Source: Dysgonamonadaceae bacterium (GTDB lineage Bacteria; Bacteroidota; Bacteroidia; Bacteroidales; Azobacteroidaceae). Taken from it: a DNA stretch of 16,629 nt. This document shows positions 7,306-16,629 of this stretch, piece by piece; position 1 is the stretch's first letter; every line of letters starts with the position of its first letter. Where the stretch lies: positions 1-16,629 of the forward strand of contig JAIRKG010000017.1 in assembly GCA_031260235.1 (NCBI GenBank). Direction: 5' to 3'. Position numbers and translations under genes: made by a program. Under the pieces are notes generated by a model. It searched no databases. It was given only the letters and a program-made list of their open reading frames with translations, and was not told where the DNA came from.

Positions 7306-8097
7306 ATGAATAAAATAGTCAGTAAAGAAGCCCTCTCGGCAAACGTAATGAAATTCGTTGTTGAGGCACCGTTGATTGCAAAATCCGGAAAGCCGGGGCA
7401 TTTCATTATCCTGAAAACGGGGAAATTCGGCGAACGGATTCCCTTGACAATCGCAGATTCGAATATCCAAGACGGTACGATTACCTTAATCATCCAGCAA
7501 GTAGGCAAATCGACCCGGAAAATATGCGCCCTCGACGCCGGCGGATATATCGACGATATGGTGGGGCCGCTTGGAAAAGCTACTCACATTGAGCGTTTCG
7601 GGACGGTTGTATGCGCTTGCGGAGGCGTGGGAACTGCGCCAATGTATCCAATTGCCCGCGCCATGAAGCAGGCGGGAAATAAAGTGATTGTCGTTTTGGC
7701 AGCGCGAAATAGAGCGTTGATTCTCATGGAACAGGAAATGAGAAATTTCGCCGACGAGGTGATTATTATGACCGACGATGGCTCTTACGGACAAAAAGGC
7801 TTGGTTACGCAGGGTATAGAGCAGGTCATCAATCGTGAAAAGGTCAATTTGTGCGTAACGATAGGACCTGCGGTTATGATGAAGTTTGTTTCCTTATTAA
7901 CGAAGAGATATGAAATTCCTACGGTGGCTTCCCTGAATACAATTATGGTTGATGGGACGGGAATGTGCGGCGCGTGCCGCGTTACGGTCGGCGGGAAAAC
8001 TCGCTTTGTGTGTGTTGACGGGCCTGAGTTTGATGCACATCTGGTCGATTTTGATGAGATGATGATGCGGTTGGGGGCTTACAGGGACTATGAGTGA
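7306..8097 (+). CDS. nfnA: NfnA / sulfide dehydrogenase-type FAD/NAD-binding subunit with a [2Fe-2S] cluster
   Basis: This 263-residue protein belongs to the ferredoxin-NADP reductase-like family that includes dihydroorotate dehydrogenase electron-transfer subunit PyrK, SudB and NfnA. Visible parts are an FAD-binding beta barrel with the ERIPLTIAD motif (about residues 43-51), the NAD-binding segment CACGGVGTAPMYPIARAM (103-120), and a C-terminal [2Fe-2S] motif with C221, C224 and C236 in VDGTGMCGACRV and FVCVDGPEF. In NfnAB complexes this small subunit carries the NADH site while the large subunit holds the bifurcating FAD. A Bacteroidetes-type promoter lies directly upstream, and nfnB starts 26 bp downstream, so the two are a transcription unit. 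The PyrK role is less likely because the partner is a GltD-like protein rather than PyrD. Confidence 0.85.
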   Translation: MNKIVSKEALSANVMKFVVEAPLIAKSGKPGHFIILKTGKFGERIPLTIADSNIQDGTITLIIQQVGKSTRKICALDAGGYIDDMVGPLGKATHIERFGTVVCACGGVGTAPMYPIARAMKQAGNKVIVVLAARNRALILMEQEMRNFADEVIIMTDDGSYGQKGLVTQGIEQVINREKVNLCVTIGPAVMMKFVSLLTKRYEIPTVASLNTIMVDGTGMCGACRVTVGGKTRFVCVDGPEFDAHLVDFDEMMMRLGAYRDYE

Positions 8098-8117
8098 ATT
8101 ACTAATTATGAATTAAG
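8096..8117. repeat. Degenerate heptamer repeat between nfnA and nfnB
   Basis: The 26-bp gap between the two genes consists largely of the 7-base units GAATTAC, TAATTAT and GAATTAA. Similar 7-base periodic sequence occurs at other junctions in this window (10363-10381, 11460-11519, 16180-16204). Confidence 0.5.
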
Positions 8118-8123
8118 AGATTG

Positions 8124-9581
8124 ATGGAAGGTATGAAAAAAATGAGAGATGAATTATGGCGGAAGGAATTGCGTGAAAGTATGAAAAACAAAGAGCGCGT
8201 GGCTATTCCTCGTGTGAAAATGCCTGAGTTGGAAGCTGCATATCGCAGCCGCAGTTATGACGAAGTCAATATGGGTTTGTCGGTCGAACAGGCTGTGCTG
8301 GAAGCCAAACGCTGTCTGGATTGTCCCGAACCGGCGTGTATGAGCGGTTGTCCGGTGGGGGTGAATATTCCCCAATTTATCAAGTATATTGAGAAAAACG
8401 AAATATTGAAAGCTGCTGCGACGCTGAAAGAAACGTCGGCATTGCCTGCTGTTTGCGGTCGCGTATGTCCGCAGGAAAAGCAATGCGAAAGCCGGTGTAT
8501 ACACCTGAAAATGAAGAGTGAAGCGGTTGCCGTCGGTTATCTGGAACGCTTTGCCGCTGATTATGAACGGGAGAAAGGCGCGGTTTCGACACCTCAACCT
8601 GCGGCAAGCAACGGGATTAAGATTGCCGTAATCGGTTCCGGCCCTGCAGGGTTGTCCTTTGCCGGCGATATGGCAAAATATGGCTATGATGTAACGGTAT
8701 TTGAAGCTTTGCATGAAATCGGGGGTGTGTTGAAATATGGGATACCTGAATTTCGTCTGCCGAATCATATTGTGGATGTGGAGATTGACGTCCTCCGAAA
8801 GATGGGCGTTCAGTTTATCGCTAACTGCATCGTCGGGAAGACTGTTTCTTACGAAGATTTGCATGAACAGGGTTTTAAGGGGATTTTCGCGGCGAGCGGC
8901 GCTGGGTTGCCTAATTTTATGAATATTCGGGGCGAAAACCTGTCGGGCGTCCTATCGTCCAATGAATACCTGACGCGCATTAACCTGATGGGTGCTAATC
9001 GCGAAGAAACGGATACGCCGGTCTTTTTCGGGAAGAATGTTGCGGTTATCGGCGGCGGAAATACGGCGATGGATTCTGTGAGGACTGCCCGCCGCCTGGG
9101 CGCAGAAAAGGCGATGATCATCTACCGCCGCTCGGAAGAGGAAATGCCTGCCCGCCTCGAAGAGGTGAAACATGCGAAGGAAGAAGGGATTATTTTCCTT
9201 ACACTCCATAATCCTGTCGAATATATCGGCGACGAAAAGGGATTCGTTAAACAAATGGTTCTCCAGAAAATGCAACTCGGCGAGCCGGATGCTTCGGGAC
9301 GCAGACGACCGGTTGAAATCCCCGGTGCTGTCAAAACGGTAGATGTGGATTTGGTCGTCGTGGCGATAGGGGTATCGCCCAACCCACTTATTCCAAGTGC
9401 TTTCAGCGGATTGAACATCAGCAAGTGGGGAACGATTATCGTGGATCAGGAAAGATTGCAAACTGATTTGCCGGATGTTTATGCAGGCGGAGATATTGTG
9501 CGTGGAGGGGCTACTGTTATTCTTGCAATGGGCGACGGGCGGCGAGCGGCGAGGTGTGCTAATATGCAATGGATGGGTTAA
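8124..9581 (+). CDS. nfnB: NfnB / GltD-like NADPH-dependent oxidoreductase (annotated elsewhere as gltA)
   Basis: This is the 485-residue large subunit. An N-terminal ferredoxin-like domain has two Cys sets (C64, C67, C72, C76 and C111, C115, C121, C125) for two [4Fe-4S] clusters. It is followed by an FAD-binding GSGPAG (171-176) and a NADP-binding IGGGNTAMDSVRTARRLGA (309-327). With NfnA it would couple NADH and reduced ferredoxin oxidation to NADP+ reduction by flavin-based bifurcation. Databases often call such proteins glutamate synthase small chain, NADPH-dependent glutamate synthase or sulfide dehydrogenase subunit alpha; the adjacent NfnA-like gene favours Nfn. I chose the ATG at 8124 over the in-frame TTG just before it; ATGs at 8133 and 8142 are also possible. 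The gene ends 10 bp from the convergent tyrA stop. Confidence 0.85.
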   Translation: MEGMKKMRDELWRKELRESMKNKERVAIPRVKMPELEAAYRSRSYDEVNMGLSVEQAVLEAKRCLDCPEPACMSGCPVGVNIPQFIKYIEKNEILKAAATLKETSALPAVCGRVCPQEKQCESRCIHLKMKSEAVAVGYLERFAADYEREKGAVSTPQPAASNGIKIAVIGSGPAGLSFAGDMAKYGYDVTVFEALHEIGGVLKYGIPEFRLPNHIVDVEIDVLRKMGVQFIANCIVGKTVSYEDLHEQGFKGIFAASGAGLPNFMNIRGENLSGVLSSNEYLTRINLMGANREETDTPVFFGKNVAVIGGGNTAMDSVRTARRLGAEKAMIIYRRSEEEMPARLEEVKHAKEEGIIFLTLHNPVEYIGDEKGFVKQMVLQKMQLGEPDASGRRRPVEIPGAVKTVDVDLVVVAIGVSPNPLIPSAFSGLNISKWGTIIVDQERLQTDLPDVYAGGDIVRGGATVILAMGDGRRAARCANMQWMG

Positions 9582-13961: not shown

Positions 13962-15242
13962 ATGAGTACAACGAAAGAACAGGGTTTCGACACTCTAAAA
14001 ATCCACGCGGGTTACAACCCGACGGAACATCAAGGCTCCATACAGGCGCCGATTTATCAAACAACAGCCTTTGAAGTCGGTTCGCCGGAACGCGCGGAAC
14101 GTCTTCTGCGGTTTGAGGAATTTGGGCTGTTGTACAGCCGGATAGGTAACCCTACGCAGGCGGCGCTTGAACAGCGCGTTGCTGCGCTCGACGGCGGCGT
14201 TGCGGCTGTATCTGTTGCATCGGGGATGGCTGCAGTATCGTATGCCATATTGAACGCCGGCGAAGGCGGGCGCGTTATCGCTGCCGGACAAATCTACGGC
14301 GGCACTTATGACGCTTATCGCAAACTGTATCCGAACCTCGGCGTACAGATTGACATCGTAGACGACATCAACGACCTGAAAGCCGTCCGCAAGGCCATTA
14401 AACCGGATACAAGGGCTGTCTTCGTAGAATCGATCAACAATCCGGTGAACATCATTGCCGACATCGAAGCAATCGCCAATCTCGCTCACGAAAACGGTCT
14501 TCCTTTGATTGTCGACAACACGCTCGCAACGCCCTACCTGTGGAAGCCTATCCTGAACGGCGCCGACGTTGTGGTCTATTCGGCGACCAAAGCGCTTAGC
14601 GGACACGGCTCCATTATCGGCGGAATCATCGTCGATGCGGGAAAATTCAACTGGTTCGCAGGACGGCATCCCCATTTCGAGAAGCAGGTCTATACGCTGG
14701 GCGGCAAAACCATTGGGGAAGTGTTTCCCGATTTCCCGTTTGCGGCGCGGGCGCGGAGTTATTATCTCAACCTGCTCGGCGCGGCGCTGTCGCCTTTCGA
14801 CGCTTATCTGATATTGCAGGGTATCGAAACGCTGTCCGAACGTCTCAAAAAACAGAGCGAATCGGCACAAATCATTGCCGAATATCTGTCGAATCATCCG
14901 AAAGTCAAATGGGTAAGTTATCCTACGCTGCCGGGCGGCAAATACAAAAAACTTGCCGAAAAATATTTACTCAAAGGATCCGGCGGCGTCTTTTCGTTCG
15001 GGTTCAAAGGAACGCAGGAAGAAATCTACAATTTCCTCAATACCGTAAAACTGTTTTCGTATCATGCCAACCTGGGTGACACCCGTTCGCTGATAATCAA
15101 TTCACCGAAAACCACCCATCACGAGTTGACGGAGGACGAAAAAAAGCGCACCGGCGTGCCGCCCGAAACCATCCGCCTGTCTATCGGGCTTGAAGATGTA
15201 AACGATTTAATTGCCGATTTGGAGCAGGCGTTTAACAGCTAA
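13962..15242 (+). CDS. metY: O-acetylhomoserine sulfhydrylase / methionine synthase-type Cys/Met metabolism PLP enzyme
   Basis: MetY joins O-acetylhomoserine with sulfide to give homocysteine, or with methanethiol to give methionine directly. The 426-residue protein is a full-length member of the Cys/Met metabolism PLP family. It shows the N-terminal TLKIHAGYNP and SIQAPIYQTTAF (11-20, 26-37), the phosphate-contacting YSRIGNPT (58-65), the pyridine-ring Asp in IVDNTLATP (D185), and the PLP lysine K210 in SATKALSGHG. The long insertion around FNWFAGRHPHFEK (about 228-240) is typical of O-acetylhomoserine sulfhydrylases and not of cystathionine synthases. It is 85 bp upstream of the nifH-like gene on the same strand. 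This neighbourhood suggests methanethiol as the in vivo sulfur donor; that is inference. Confidence 0.93.
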   Translation: MSTTKEQGFDTLKIHAGYNPTEHQGSIQAPIYQTTAFEVGSPERAERLLRFEEFGLLYSRIGNPTQAALEQRVAALDGGVAAVSVASGMAAVSYAILNAGEGGRVIAAGQIYGGTYDAYRKLYPNLGVQIDIVDDINDLKAVRKAIKPDTRAVFVESINNPVNIIADIEAIANLAHENGLPLIVDNTLATPYLWKPILNGADVVVYSATKALSGHGSIIGGIIVDAGKFNWFAGRHPHFEKQVYTLGGKTIGEVFPDFPFAARARSYYLNLLGAALSPFDAYLILQGIETLSERLKKQSESAQIIAEYLSNHPKVKWVSYPTLPGGKYKKLAEKYLLKGSGGVFSFGFKGTQEEIYNFLNTVKLFSYHANLGDTRSLIINSPKTTHHELTEDEKKRTGVPPETIRLSIGLEDVNDLIADLEQAFNS

Positions 15243-15263
15243 TTGAGTCCATACGTAGTTTTG
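15231..15263 (+). promoter_or_regulatory. Possible promoter for the nifH-like gene
   Basis: TAGTTTTG (15256-15263) fits the -7 pattern TAnnTTTG, with TTTA (15231-15234, three of four matches to TTTG) 21 nt upstream. The upstream element lies in the last codons of metY. This would allow the nifH-like gene to be transcribed apart from metY, starting near 15270. The spacing is slightly long, so confidence is moderate. Confidence 0.4.
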
Positions 15264-15327
15264 TATCTGTATTTATGATAAAAAAAGTCCGTGCCTTTGC
15301 GACTTGAAAAGTTTAATTTTATACGAC

Positions 15328-16188
15328 ATGTCAAATAAAAAGATCAAACAGATTGCCATTTATGGTAAAGGAGGTATCGGAAAATCAACGACAACCTCAA
15401 ACATTAGCGCCGCTTTAGTAGAAGCCGGCTACAAAGTTTTGCAATTCGGCTGCGACCCCAAGAGCGATTCGACAAACACTTTACGAGACGGGAAATACAT
15501 TCCTACTGTTCTGGATTTGTTGCGTGAGAAATCGAAAGTTGATGCTCACGAAGCGATATTCCAGGGATTCAAAGGCGTATATTGCGTCGAAGCAGGCGGA
15601 CCGGCGCCGGGCGTCGGATGTGCCGGACGTGGAATTATCACGGCAGTCGAATTGTTGAAACAGCAAAACATTTTCACGGAACTGGATTTGGATTATGTCA
15701 TTTTCGACGTCCTGGGTGACGTGGTATGCGGCGGCTTTGCCGTTCCCATTCGCGAAGGTATCGCCGAACATGTTTTCACCGTTTCGTCGTCGGATTTCAT
15801 GGCTATTTATGCGGCAAATAACCTGATGAAAGGCATCAAGAAGTATTCCAATACCGGCGGTGCATTGTTTGGCGGCATCATTGCCAATTCAATCAACAAC
15901 GAATACCAGCAGTCGATTATTGACGATTTTGCCGGTAAGACAGGTACGCAAGTCGTGGAATACGTGCCGCGCTCAATAACCGTCACGCAGTCGGAACTGT
16001 CGGGACGAACAACTATCGAAGCGCAACCCCAGTCGAAACAGGCGGATATTTATCGCAGTCTGGCTTTCAAGATTCACGAGCATACCGAATCGAAAGTCCC
16101 TACGCCGCTCAATATCGACGAACTCCGTAACTGGTCGGCCTTATGGGCCGACCAGTTGCTCGCTATCGAATCAAAAGCCAATGATTAA
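15328..16188 (+). CDS. NifH-like iron protein of a nitrogenase-like reductase (MarH-type candidate)
   Basis: This is an ATP-dependent electron-donor protein of the NifH/BchL/CfbC family. I start at the ATG at 15328 (MSNKKIKQIAIYGKGG, 286 residues); an in-frame TTG at 15304 adds only eight poor residues. The P-loop GKGGIGKST is at 13-21, and switch-type GCDPKSDST at 41-49. The two cluster ligands are C98 (GVGCAGRG) and C134 (DVLGDVVCGG), with R101 at the NifH ADP-ribosylation position. Both Cys and the Walker residues are intact, so it should be active. It differs from molybdenum NifH at several conserved spots: PKSDSTNTLR for PKADSTRL, and SSDFMAIYAANN for SGEMMALYAANN. This places it, by eye, among nitrogenase-like group IV-type proteins. 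With MetY upstream and a NifB-like gene 16 bp downstream, a methylthio-alkane reductase iron protein is the best guess; a true nitrogenase is the main alternative. Confidence 0.85.
   Translation: MSNKKIKQIAIYGKGGIGKSTTTSNISAALVEAGYKVLQFGCDPKSDSTNTLRDGKYIPTVLDLLREKSKVDAHEAIFQGFKGVYCVEAGGPAPGVGCAGRGIITAVELLKQQNIFTELDLDYVIFDVLGDVVCGGFAVPIREGIAEHVFTVSSSDFMAIYAANNLMKGIKKYSNTGGALFGGIIANSINNEYQQSIIDDFAGKTGTQVVEYVPRSITVTQSELSGRTTIEAQPQSKQADIYRSLAFKIHEHTESKVPTPLNIDELRNWSALWADQLLAIESKAND
16129..16157 (+). repeat. Perfect 12-bp inverted repeat inside the 3' end of the nifH-like gene
   Basis: AACTGGTCGGCC (16129-16140) and GGCCGACCAGTT (16146-16157) are exact reverse complements separated by TTATG. In RNA this is a 12-bp, GC-rich hairpin with a 5-nt loop, ending 31 bp before the stop codon's last base. 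It is translated as part of NWSALWADQL. No T-run follows, so it is not a standard terminator. Confidence 0.9.
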
Positions 16189-16200
16189 TCACTAATCATT
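16180..16200. repeat. Inverted repeat across the stop codon of the nifH-like gene
   Basis: AATGATTA (16180-16187) and TAATCATT (16193-16200) are perfect inverted copies around ATCAC. The left arm contains the stop codon, and the right arm ends four bases before the nifB-like ATG. The bases also follow the 7-base periodicity of the other junction repeats. The hairpin would be weak because it is AT-rich. Confidence 0.7.
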
Positions 16201-16204
16201 ATTT

Positions 16205-16629
16205 ATGGACATCAGCAATCATCCCTGTTTTAATGCGGAAGTGCGGCACACTTCGGGAAGGATACACCTGGCGGTAGCGCCGAGATGCAATGTACAGTGC
16301 AACTTTTGTAACCGTAAATTCGATTGTGCCAACGAAAGCCGTCCGGGTGTAACTACTTCGGTGATGAACCCCATTCAGGCGATTGAATACCTGTCGGACA
16401 TGGTTAAGCGGATCAACAACCTGTCGGTAGTAGGAATCGCAGGCCCCGGCGACCCTTTTGCCAATCCCGAAGAGACGATTGAAACGCTGGAACGGGTATG
16501 CGCCGCTTTTCCCGACAAATTGCTGTGTGTTTCTTCCAACGGACTGGCTTTGGCCGAATATGTGCCGAGCCTGACAAAAATAAACGTTTCGCACGTTACC
16601 GTTACCGTCAATGCCGTTGACCCGAAAGT
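16205..16629 (+). CDS. NifB-like radical SAM protein, 3'-truncated by the window edge
   Basis: NifB builds the 8Fe-9S-C precursor (NifB-co) of nitrogenase cofactors; MarB is the related protein encoded with methylthio-alkane reductase. Starting at the ATG at 16205, 141 codons are visible and the frame runs off the end. The N-terminal HPCF (6-9) is the NifB hallmark. The radical SAM motif CX3CX2C is C28, C32 and C35, followed by C41 in NRKFDCANESRPGVT. SVVGIAGPGDPFANP (74-88), SSNGL (110-114) and VSHVTVTVNAVDP (128-140) are also NifB signatures. It lies 16 bp after the nifH-like stop, so the two are cotranscribed. Whether a NifX-like domain follows cannot be seen. The presence of a cofactor maturase implies a complex iron-sulfur cofactor, which argues against simpler relatives such as BchL or CfbC systems. 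Confidence 0.9.
   Translation, partial: MDISNHPCFNAEVRHTSGRIHLAVAPRCNVQCNFCNRKFDCANESRPGVTTSVMNPIQAIEYLSDMVKRINNLSVVGIAGPGDPFANPEETIETLERVCAAFPDKLLCVSSNGLALAEYVPSLTKINVSHVTVTVNAVDPK

Follow-up and report, generated by a model that had tools for sequence, protein, structure and literature searches.

The stretch analysed here (the window) is the whole of contig C1, 16,629 bp long, from the draft genome of a Dysgonamonadaceae bacterium (GCA_031260235.1, contig JAIRKG010000017.1; genome G000), which comprises 1.41 Mb in 158 contigs and is 75% complete. Three genes stand in a row on the plus strand at its 3' end, with gaps of 85 bp between metY and the iron protein gene and 16 bp between the latter and the NifB-like gene:

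13962-15242, plus strand: metY, O-acetylhomoserine sulfhydrylase-like, 426 aa, ATG to TAA
15328-16188, plus strand: marH-like iron protein, electron donor, 286 aa, best start ATG at 15328
16205-16629, plus strand: marB/nifB-like radical SAM gene, first 141 codons, ATG start, 3' end off the contig

Such a combination is far beyond chance. A reading of the sequence alone had taken these genes for a methylthio-alkane reductase (Mar) system doing the same job as MarBHDK of Rhodospirillum rubrum; the row and its gaps are as it described them, although only the first 141 codons of the NifB-like gene are present. The interpretation that we favour, with some reserve, is that the window carries the first half of a nitrogenase-like C-S reductase for sulfur salvage, probably of the kind termed D2 below. 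The contig end falls inside the NifB-like gene, so that no sequence 3' of this piece can be read.

The product of metY carries the motif SATK at residue 207, which we take to be the pyridoxal phosphate-lysine motif. In the family scan its best match was TIGR01326 (O-acetylhomoserine sulfhydrylase) with 482.8 bits, slightly below the cut-off of 495.1, and the enzyme is expected to couple O-acetylhomoserine with methanethiol or sulfide. For the iron protein, the open reading frame list gives a TTG start at 15304, the ATG at 15328 being preferred here; the P-loop GKGGIGKST is intact and both cluster cysteines are kept, in GVGCAGRG and DVLGDVVCGGF. The NifB-like piece contains HPCF, CNVQCNFC, DCANESRPGV, GIAGPGDP and VTVTVNAVDP, presumably the NifB motifs. 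Its best family is TIGR01290 nifB, with 199.8 bits across 140 residues; the match is partial and lies below the cut-off of 343.65. The piece shares 81% identity, across 142 residues, with its counterpart in locus L046 of G022, a genome of the same genus. The protein is expected to make the [Fe8S9C] cluster.

The iron protein (H) is almost certainly of the MarH type, in keeping with the sequence-only reading. Among solved structures the closest is R. rubrum MarH (9fmg_D; 516 bits, 82% identity over 279 residues), whereas the best NifH scores 278 bits. The NifH and AnfH encoded elsewhere in the same genome are 47-50% identical to it. In a tree of the window H, 22 related H and R. rubrum MarH, where these two proteins are the only nitrogenase rows, they branch off from the window H and its relatives with support of 100/100. 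The window H, which is 95-96% identical to its nearest relatives, stands beside L046 (G022) and L047 (97/93), in a tree that is weakly resolved within the Bacteroidota (6 of 23 branches starred).

Scanning genome contigs by pattern yielded 23 loci. In 22 of these the H is at least 74% identical to the window H, and 18 of the 22 belong to Bacteroidota, from 17 genomes (G146-G162). Mar-type catalytic subunits (D/K) are present in 15 of these 17 other genomes, mostly beside sulfur-metabolism genes, and these relatives give good support to the broad proposal of a Mar-like system for salvaging sulfur. Two D/K types accompany this H: D1, the type of R. rubrum MarDK, and D2, a sister clade. D2 occurs in 13 of the 17 genomes and D1 in six, four having both and two (G147, G149) neither. 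R. rubrum MarD is 70-84% identical to five D1 rows (70-74% to the four from Bacteroidota) and 33-36% identical to D2 (15 rows), and R. rubrum MarK is 38-47% identical to K2; in the K tree two K1 rows (G215, G448) fall outside the K1 group. At two loci from other genomes of the window's taxonomic order (L159:2414-5261 in G388 and L162:9966-13773 in G215), D1 adjoins an H only 51-52% identical to the window MarH.

Of the 18 loci from Bacteroidota, 12 have the NifB-like gene (B) directly 3' of H. The sequence-only reading had regarded H before B as a departure from the R. rubrum order, and the order itself stands while its oddity does not. Ten of the genomes with an H-B locus have D/K, and all ten have D2, two of them D1 as well; the order H-D1-K1-B is found in all three Bacteroidota loci where D1 adjoins H. 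In G022, whose contigs and scores coincide with those of G146, the H-B pair, D2K2 (C77) and D1K1 (C234) are located on three contigs, with a single Mar-type H.

In the MetY tree, the window protein and seven D2-linked MetYs form a group with 100/100 support, from which three D1-linked MetYs, 42-48% identical to the window's, are separate; the rows of L104 and L052 are partial, and L113 was counted as D1-linked with its MetY 2.7 kb from D1, yet its genome (G160) also has D2. The MetY subfamily (at least 70% identity) is present in four of 146 genomes, G000 itself, G022, G108 and G016, all remaining matches being at most 46% identical. In the B tree (187 columns; 21 of 22 rows, L047 left out) the window piece belongs to a group of six with support of 93/97, the other members of which come from D2 genomes or from G149. 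Chiefly by gene order and MetY, D2 is thus the better prediction for the half that is absent, and if the genome has Mar-type D/K they are quite probably of this type.

The relatives' D2 and K2 retain all six P-cluster cysteines and the [Fe8S9C] ligands Cys270 and His429. All MarD metal ligands and the Arg428-His429 hallmark are kept in 130 of 130 D2 rows, as are the three P-cluster cysteines of D together with Cys270, and the K2 ligand set is kept in 12 of 12 rows; in one of the D2 comparisons, five of the 120 proteins were dropped, none of them longer than 450 aa. The substrate site is changed: none of the 130 rows has either Cys73 or His194 of R. rubrum MarD, both of which are found in the D1 rows L052, L060, L099 and L113. 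The His194 position is occupied by Ile or Val, and the Cys73 position by Gly, Ser, Ala, Asn or Tyr (Thr in G166_c). Trp195 is present in all D1 and D2 rows, and Phe199 in all D2 and all but one D1. A fold model of D2 is middling (mean pLDDT, the predicted local distance difference test score, of 71.7, with values below 50 close to active-site positions, for example at 175-184, 366-375 and 397-400), so no claim about the pocket is based on it.

Tandem D2 genes, each set with one K2, are present in L061:11730-16302 (three) and L063:9854-12808 (two). The copies differ at the MarD Cys73 position, with Asn in one and Gly in the others, a pattern that might reflect the exchange of D subunits on a shared K.

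In a D2 profile search, the best 120 of 471 matches were Bacteroidales close relatives where named, with a wider set at 49-56% that includes Geotalea, Polyangiaceae and Firmicutes; the best 120 of 1247 matches of a Clostridia-side search include Syntrophobotulus, Clostridium, Sporomusa and Pelosinus. In a sample of 393 genomes from the order to which the window belongs, which does not include the D2-bearing G022, matches of at least 600 bits occur in three (G108, G388, G448).

The surroundings of D2 are rich in sulfur genes. Of the 11 D2 contigs longer than 5 kb, 10 have one or more genes for MetY, CBS, cystathionine lyase, CysK, NlpA or MetI, and 30 such genes were counted in 184 kb of D2 contigs versus one in 400 kb of control DNA (20 stretches of 20 kb from G108, whose figures equal those of G158, and from G160 and G154). 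SusC or SusD was found in 5 of the 11 D2 contigs and in none of the 20 control stretches. Contigs shorter than 5 kb (L105, L109) and same-contig duplicates (L103, L108, L112, L117) were excluded from the count. NlpA, MetN and MetI adjoin D2 in L063, L101 and L102, and NlpA and SusCD lie near H-B in L100; such neighbours suggest that an imported, non-volatile methylthio compound may be the source of sulfur. CBS and cystathionine lyase genes near D2 in L058, L061, L062, L101 and L104 suggest the possible passage of sulfur from homocysteine to cysteine. No riboswitch was matched in Rfam at gathering scores in the window or in L100, L101, L104, L056, L058, L061 and L062.

The genome encodes Mo and Fe-only nitrogenases, each with its own H, on another contig (C100):

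L007 (G000 contig C100), 1021-18480: nif and anf operons, nifB and nifV-like gene

The order there is nifH, two P-II genes, nifD, nifK, nifE and nifN-like, followed by anfH, two P-II genes, anfD, anfG, anfK, nifB and nifV-like. NifH, D, K, E and B and AnfD, G and K score above their curated cut-offs, and AnfH scores above the nifH cut-off; the nifN-like product falls below (279.8 versus 326.8 for nifN, with 308.9 for nifK), as does the nifV-like one (394 versus 462.9). Counting the window H, this makes three full nitrogenase-superfamily iron proteins in the genome.

Several observations weigh against a D2-type C-S reductase in the window and are considered here together with the explanations that might replace it. 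H proteins 86-97% identical to the window's accompany both D1 and D2; locus L053 belongs to a D2 genome, but its H and B fall with their counterparts from L052 and L054 (D1), and the B of L060 (D1) groups with that of L061. The H and B trees thus do not generally separate D1 from D2, which weakens the forecast of D2 and favours an ordinary R. rubrum-type (D1) methylthio-alkane reductase cluster. This explanation is also in line with the occurrence of D1 with the same H in 6 of 17 Bacteroidota genomes, four D1 rows being 70-74% identical to R. rubrum MarD, and with D1 (C234) besides D2 (C77) in the same-genus G022. However, the three loci with D1 beside H are ordered H-D1-K1-B and have the distant MetYs mentioned above, while the window has H-B and a MetY of the D2 clade, and the D1 explanation is regarded as unlikely, though it survives better than the others.

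Outside Bacteroidota, H proteins 74-80% identical to the window's accompany D1 and other D types. Since H of 74-97% identity adjoins several D types, H alone does not indicate the substrate. NfaH is placed within the MarH clade in PMC9147875, and the window might accordingly belong to a system of group IV-A (Nfa), for which N2 fixation has been reported in Endomicrobium proavitum. Both Endomicrobium, from which Nfa is reported, and the Bacteroides reticulotermitis strain with nif-like genes are termite-gut bacteria, according to PMC11257099 and PMC4356463. On the other hand, the D proteins of the relatives are D1 or D2 with Trp195, Phe199 and Arg428-His429, and counterparts of nitrogenase Gln191, His195 and His442 are absent from these D1 and D2 rows, which makes an Nfa system improbable. 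No protein of Endomicrobium or Paenibacillus riograndensis is named among the best 120 of 471, of 1247 and of 463 matches. A further clade of 11 rows, with Gly-His replacing Arg-His, lies outside D1 and D2 in the D tree (17 of 341 listed proteins, hand-picked) and may be IV-A. Gly-His is also found in loop I of L066:1779-12315, a locus with group IV D/K and a MarH-like H. Its neighbours appear to be parts of a corrinoid methyltransferase and presumably resemble type I mlp clusters. Type I mlp clusters contain MarHDK-like genes, according to PMC10418091.

The window H also exceeds the NCBIfam nifH equivalog cut-off (403.2 versus 394.35), and nifHDKEN, anfHDGK, nifB and nifV-like genes are at hand on C100, so that H and B might serve the nitrogenases of this genome as an additional iron protein and an additional maker of cofactor. 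This is, if anything, slightly less credible than the Nfa system: each of the two operons already includes an H, a nifB is present on C100, and the window H is 47-50% identical to these H proteins versus 86-97% to those of Mar-type clusters. In addition, Mar-type D/K are the only ones in the drafts of the relatives G148, G151, G153, G157, G159 and G161. The sequence-only reading had held that a complete nifDKEN set downstream, together with an iron protein placed inside the nitrogenase clusters, would speak against its proposal; nifHDKEN is indeed present, on C100, but the window H is not its partner. Since this MarH-type H passes a curated nifH model, it may be scored as nitrogenase by automatic annotation, and nifH surveys may miscount it.

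No Mar-type D/K was found in the 75%-complete draft, all six matches of PF00148 (the D/K family) lying in the nif and anf operons of C100. Two relatives are similar: G147 (figures identical to those of G020, 74% complete) has H-B and four PF00148 matches of nif/anf type and no Mar-type D/K, and G149 has H-B on a 3.6-kb contig and no PF00148 match in 3.5 Mb. Lack of D/K in the genome was named by the sequence-only reading as an argument against it, and formally this is what the draft shows for the Mar type, suggesting that H and B might be remnants of a decayed cluster. However, the other two thirds of the window's NifB-like gene, which in relatives runs to roughly 410-430 codons, are also absent from the assembly, where a homologue query matched only the window piece and the C100 nifB. 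An assembly gap is therefore likely, and the simplest reading is that the DNA beyond the contig end was left unassembled. H is intact, close to its nearest relatives in sequence, and the seen part of B is intact as well. Decay is thus given slightly less weight than a role in nitrogen fixation, and the organism quite probably has Mar-type D/K.

Isethionate reductase (IsrBHDK), known from Rhodobacter capsulatus, also resembles nitrogenase, has a radical SAM partner, releases the sulfur of an organic compound by C-S cleavage and is said in PMC11423573 to occur in intestinal bacteria; as described there, IsrD has one of three P-cluster cysteines and no cofactor ligands (counterparts of Cys275 and His442), whereas D2 has all three and Cys270, and IsrB resembles BciD and not NifB, whereas the window B fits nifB with its motifs, so that this identity was rejected as hardly conceivable.

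Other points that weaken the sulfur-salvage reading concern MetY and the sulfur neighbourhood. The MetY of G016 (81% complete), 91% identical to the window's, ends a SusCD-ABC-transporter operon, and this genome lacks a full MarH-type H (one match of 42 residues, 57%) and has six D/K matches arranged like nifDKEN and anfDK. MetY is the terminal gene of a SusC-SusD-NMT1-type ABC transporter operon in G016 and G151 and of an ABC operon without a SusCD match in G022. The presence of MetY in transporter operons, including that of G016, indicates that the subfamily serves general sulfur uptake and not Mar alone. The ABC operons of L184:1-9778 (with SusCD) and L185:9953-17597 (no SusCD match) encode an NMT1-type binding protein, a permease and an ATPase, and their last gene encodes a MetY with about 90% identity to the window protein. 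The control for sulfur neighbours is partly circular, since some seeds derive from the case loci, which inflates the contrast; among eight seed-independent D2 contigs (L056, L058, L061, L062, L098, L102, L104, L106), seven have a sulfur gene. The exception, L098, comes from the same-genus genome and is the sole counted D2 contig without such a gene. Finally, the genome has a sulfite reductase homologue, and dependence on organic sulfur is therefore not visible. Of the families searched for sulfate assimilation, PF01077 was matched in 8 of 18 genomes, G000 included, and PF01507 in 17 of 18 (16 above the cut-off), in G000 solely as two 455-aa frames.

With these points taken together, a nitrogenase-like enzyme cleaving C-S bonds for sulfur supply remains a likely interpretation of the locus, and what differs from the sequence-only reading is its relation to the R. 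rubrum system (PDB 9FMG, 9D9U; PMC12552129). The window shares with MarBHDK an H of 82% identity, the first part of a NifB-like partner and a nearby MetY, and the relatives' D2/K2 keep the P-cluster cysteines, Cys270, His429 and the Arg428-His429 hallmark. The differences are the H-B order, the lack of D/K in this draft, the low identity of the relatives' D2 (33-36%) and K2 (38-47%), the replacement of His194 and Cys73, and the CBS/cystathionine lyase, NlpA/MetNI and SusCD genes on many D2 contigs. The kind of system that had been proposed is thus supported by the 15 of 17 relatives. Equivalence to R. rubrum MarBHDK lacks such support: in gene order and in its MetY the window agrees with D2 clusters, whose D is changed at two substrate-site positions.

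The nif-like genes of B. reticulotermitis JCM 10512 include an H 91% identical to the window's and a NifB-like gene downstream, but their D is D1, of the R. rubrum type, and their order is H-D-K-B. They were described as pseudo-nif genes of unknown function, with a D homologue lacking His442, by Inoue et al. 2015 (PMC4356463). Identity to a Mar-type D and K of Telmatospirillum is 66% and 76% for the pieces of D and 69% for K, and judged by these identities the pseudo-nif genes are D1-type Mar genes. In the draft the D1 gene (L054:10889-12374) lies in two frames, owing either to an error in sequencing or to a gene that is broken. Group IV NflDK/NfaDK of heliobacteria, Paenibacillus and Endomicrobium likewise have an H of the MarH clade and a NifB-like partner and no NifEN, according to PMC9147875 and PMC11257099; the Endomicrobium NfaDK, compared by description only, is reported there with N2-reduction ligands, whereas D2 has no counterpart of nitrogenase His442. 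A second Mar clade, or Mar in Bacteroidales, was not found in the literature searched, which left most subscription journals outside and whose published trees could not be checked for D2.

Elsewhere in the window, a prephenate dehydratase gene on the opposite strand is divergent from metY, and mfd-, infB-, nusA- and DAHP synthase-type genes are more distant neighbours. At 7306-9581 there is an adjacent pair of genes for a sulfide/dihydroorotate dehydrogenase-type FAD/NAD-binding protein (NF004862) and an NADPH-dependent glutamate synthase-type protein (TIGR01316). Such pairs can be of the NfnAB/SudAB type, a possible low-potential electron source.

In the proposed pathway, the NifB-like enzyme would build the [Fe8S9C] cluster, to be inserted into a D/K catalytic protein, most likely D2, the genes of which may lie in unassembled DNA, beside B or elsewhere. 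The MarH-like iron protein would supply electrons to D/K with ATP, and the enzyme would cleave the C-S bond of a methylthio compound. MetY might then convert the freed methanethiol (or sulfide) into methionine (or homocysteine), and in relatives CBS and cystathionine-lyase-type genes would move the sulfur on to cysteine. A more tentative possibility is that D2K2 represents a second line of methylthio-alkane reductases, with the same P- and [Fe8S9C]-clusters and a different pocket, acting on a non-volatile methylthio substrate taken up via SusCD and MetNI/NlpA-type transporters. Within one cell, D2K2 and the R. rubrum-type enzyme might draw on a common iron protein, since G022 has a single Mar-type H.

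If D2K2 is a C-S reductase, the comparison of D1 and D2, which have the same cluster ligands, closely similar iron proteins and changed residues beside the cluster, would allow one to ask what in the protein, and not in the metal cluster, sets the choice of substrate in this superfamily. For anaerobic Bacteroidales such an enzyme would mean an added route to sulfur and perhaps the release of small hydrocarbons.

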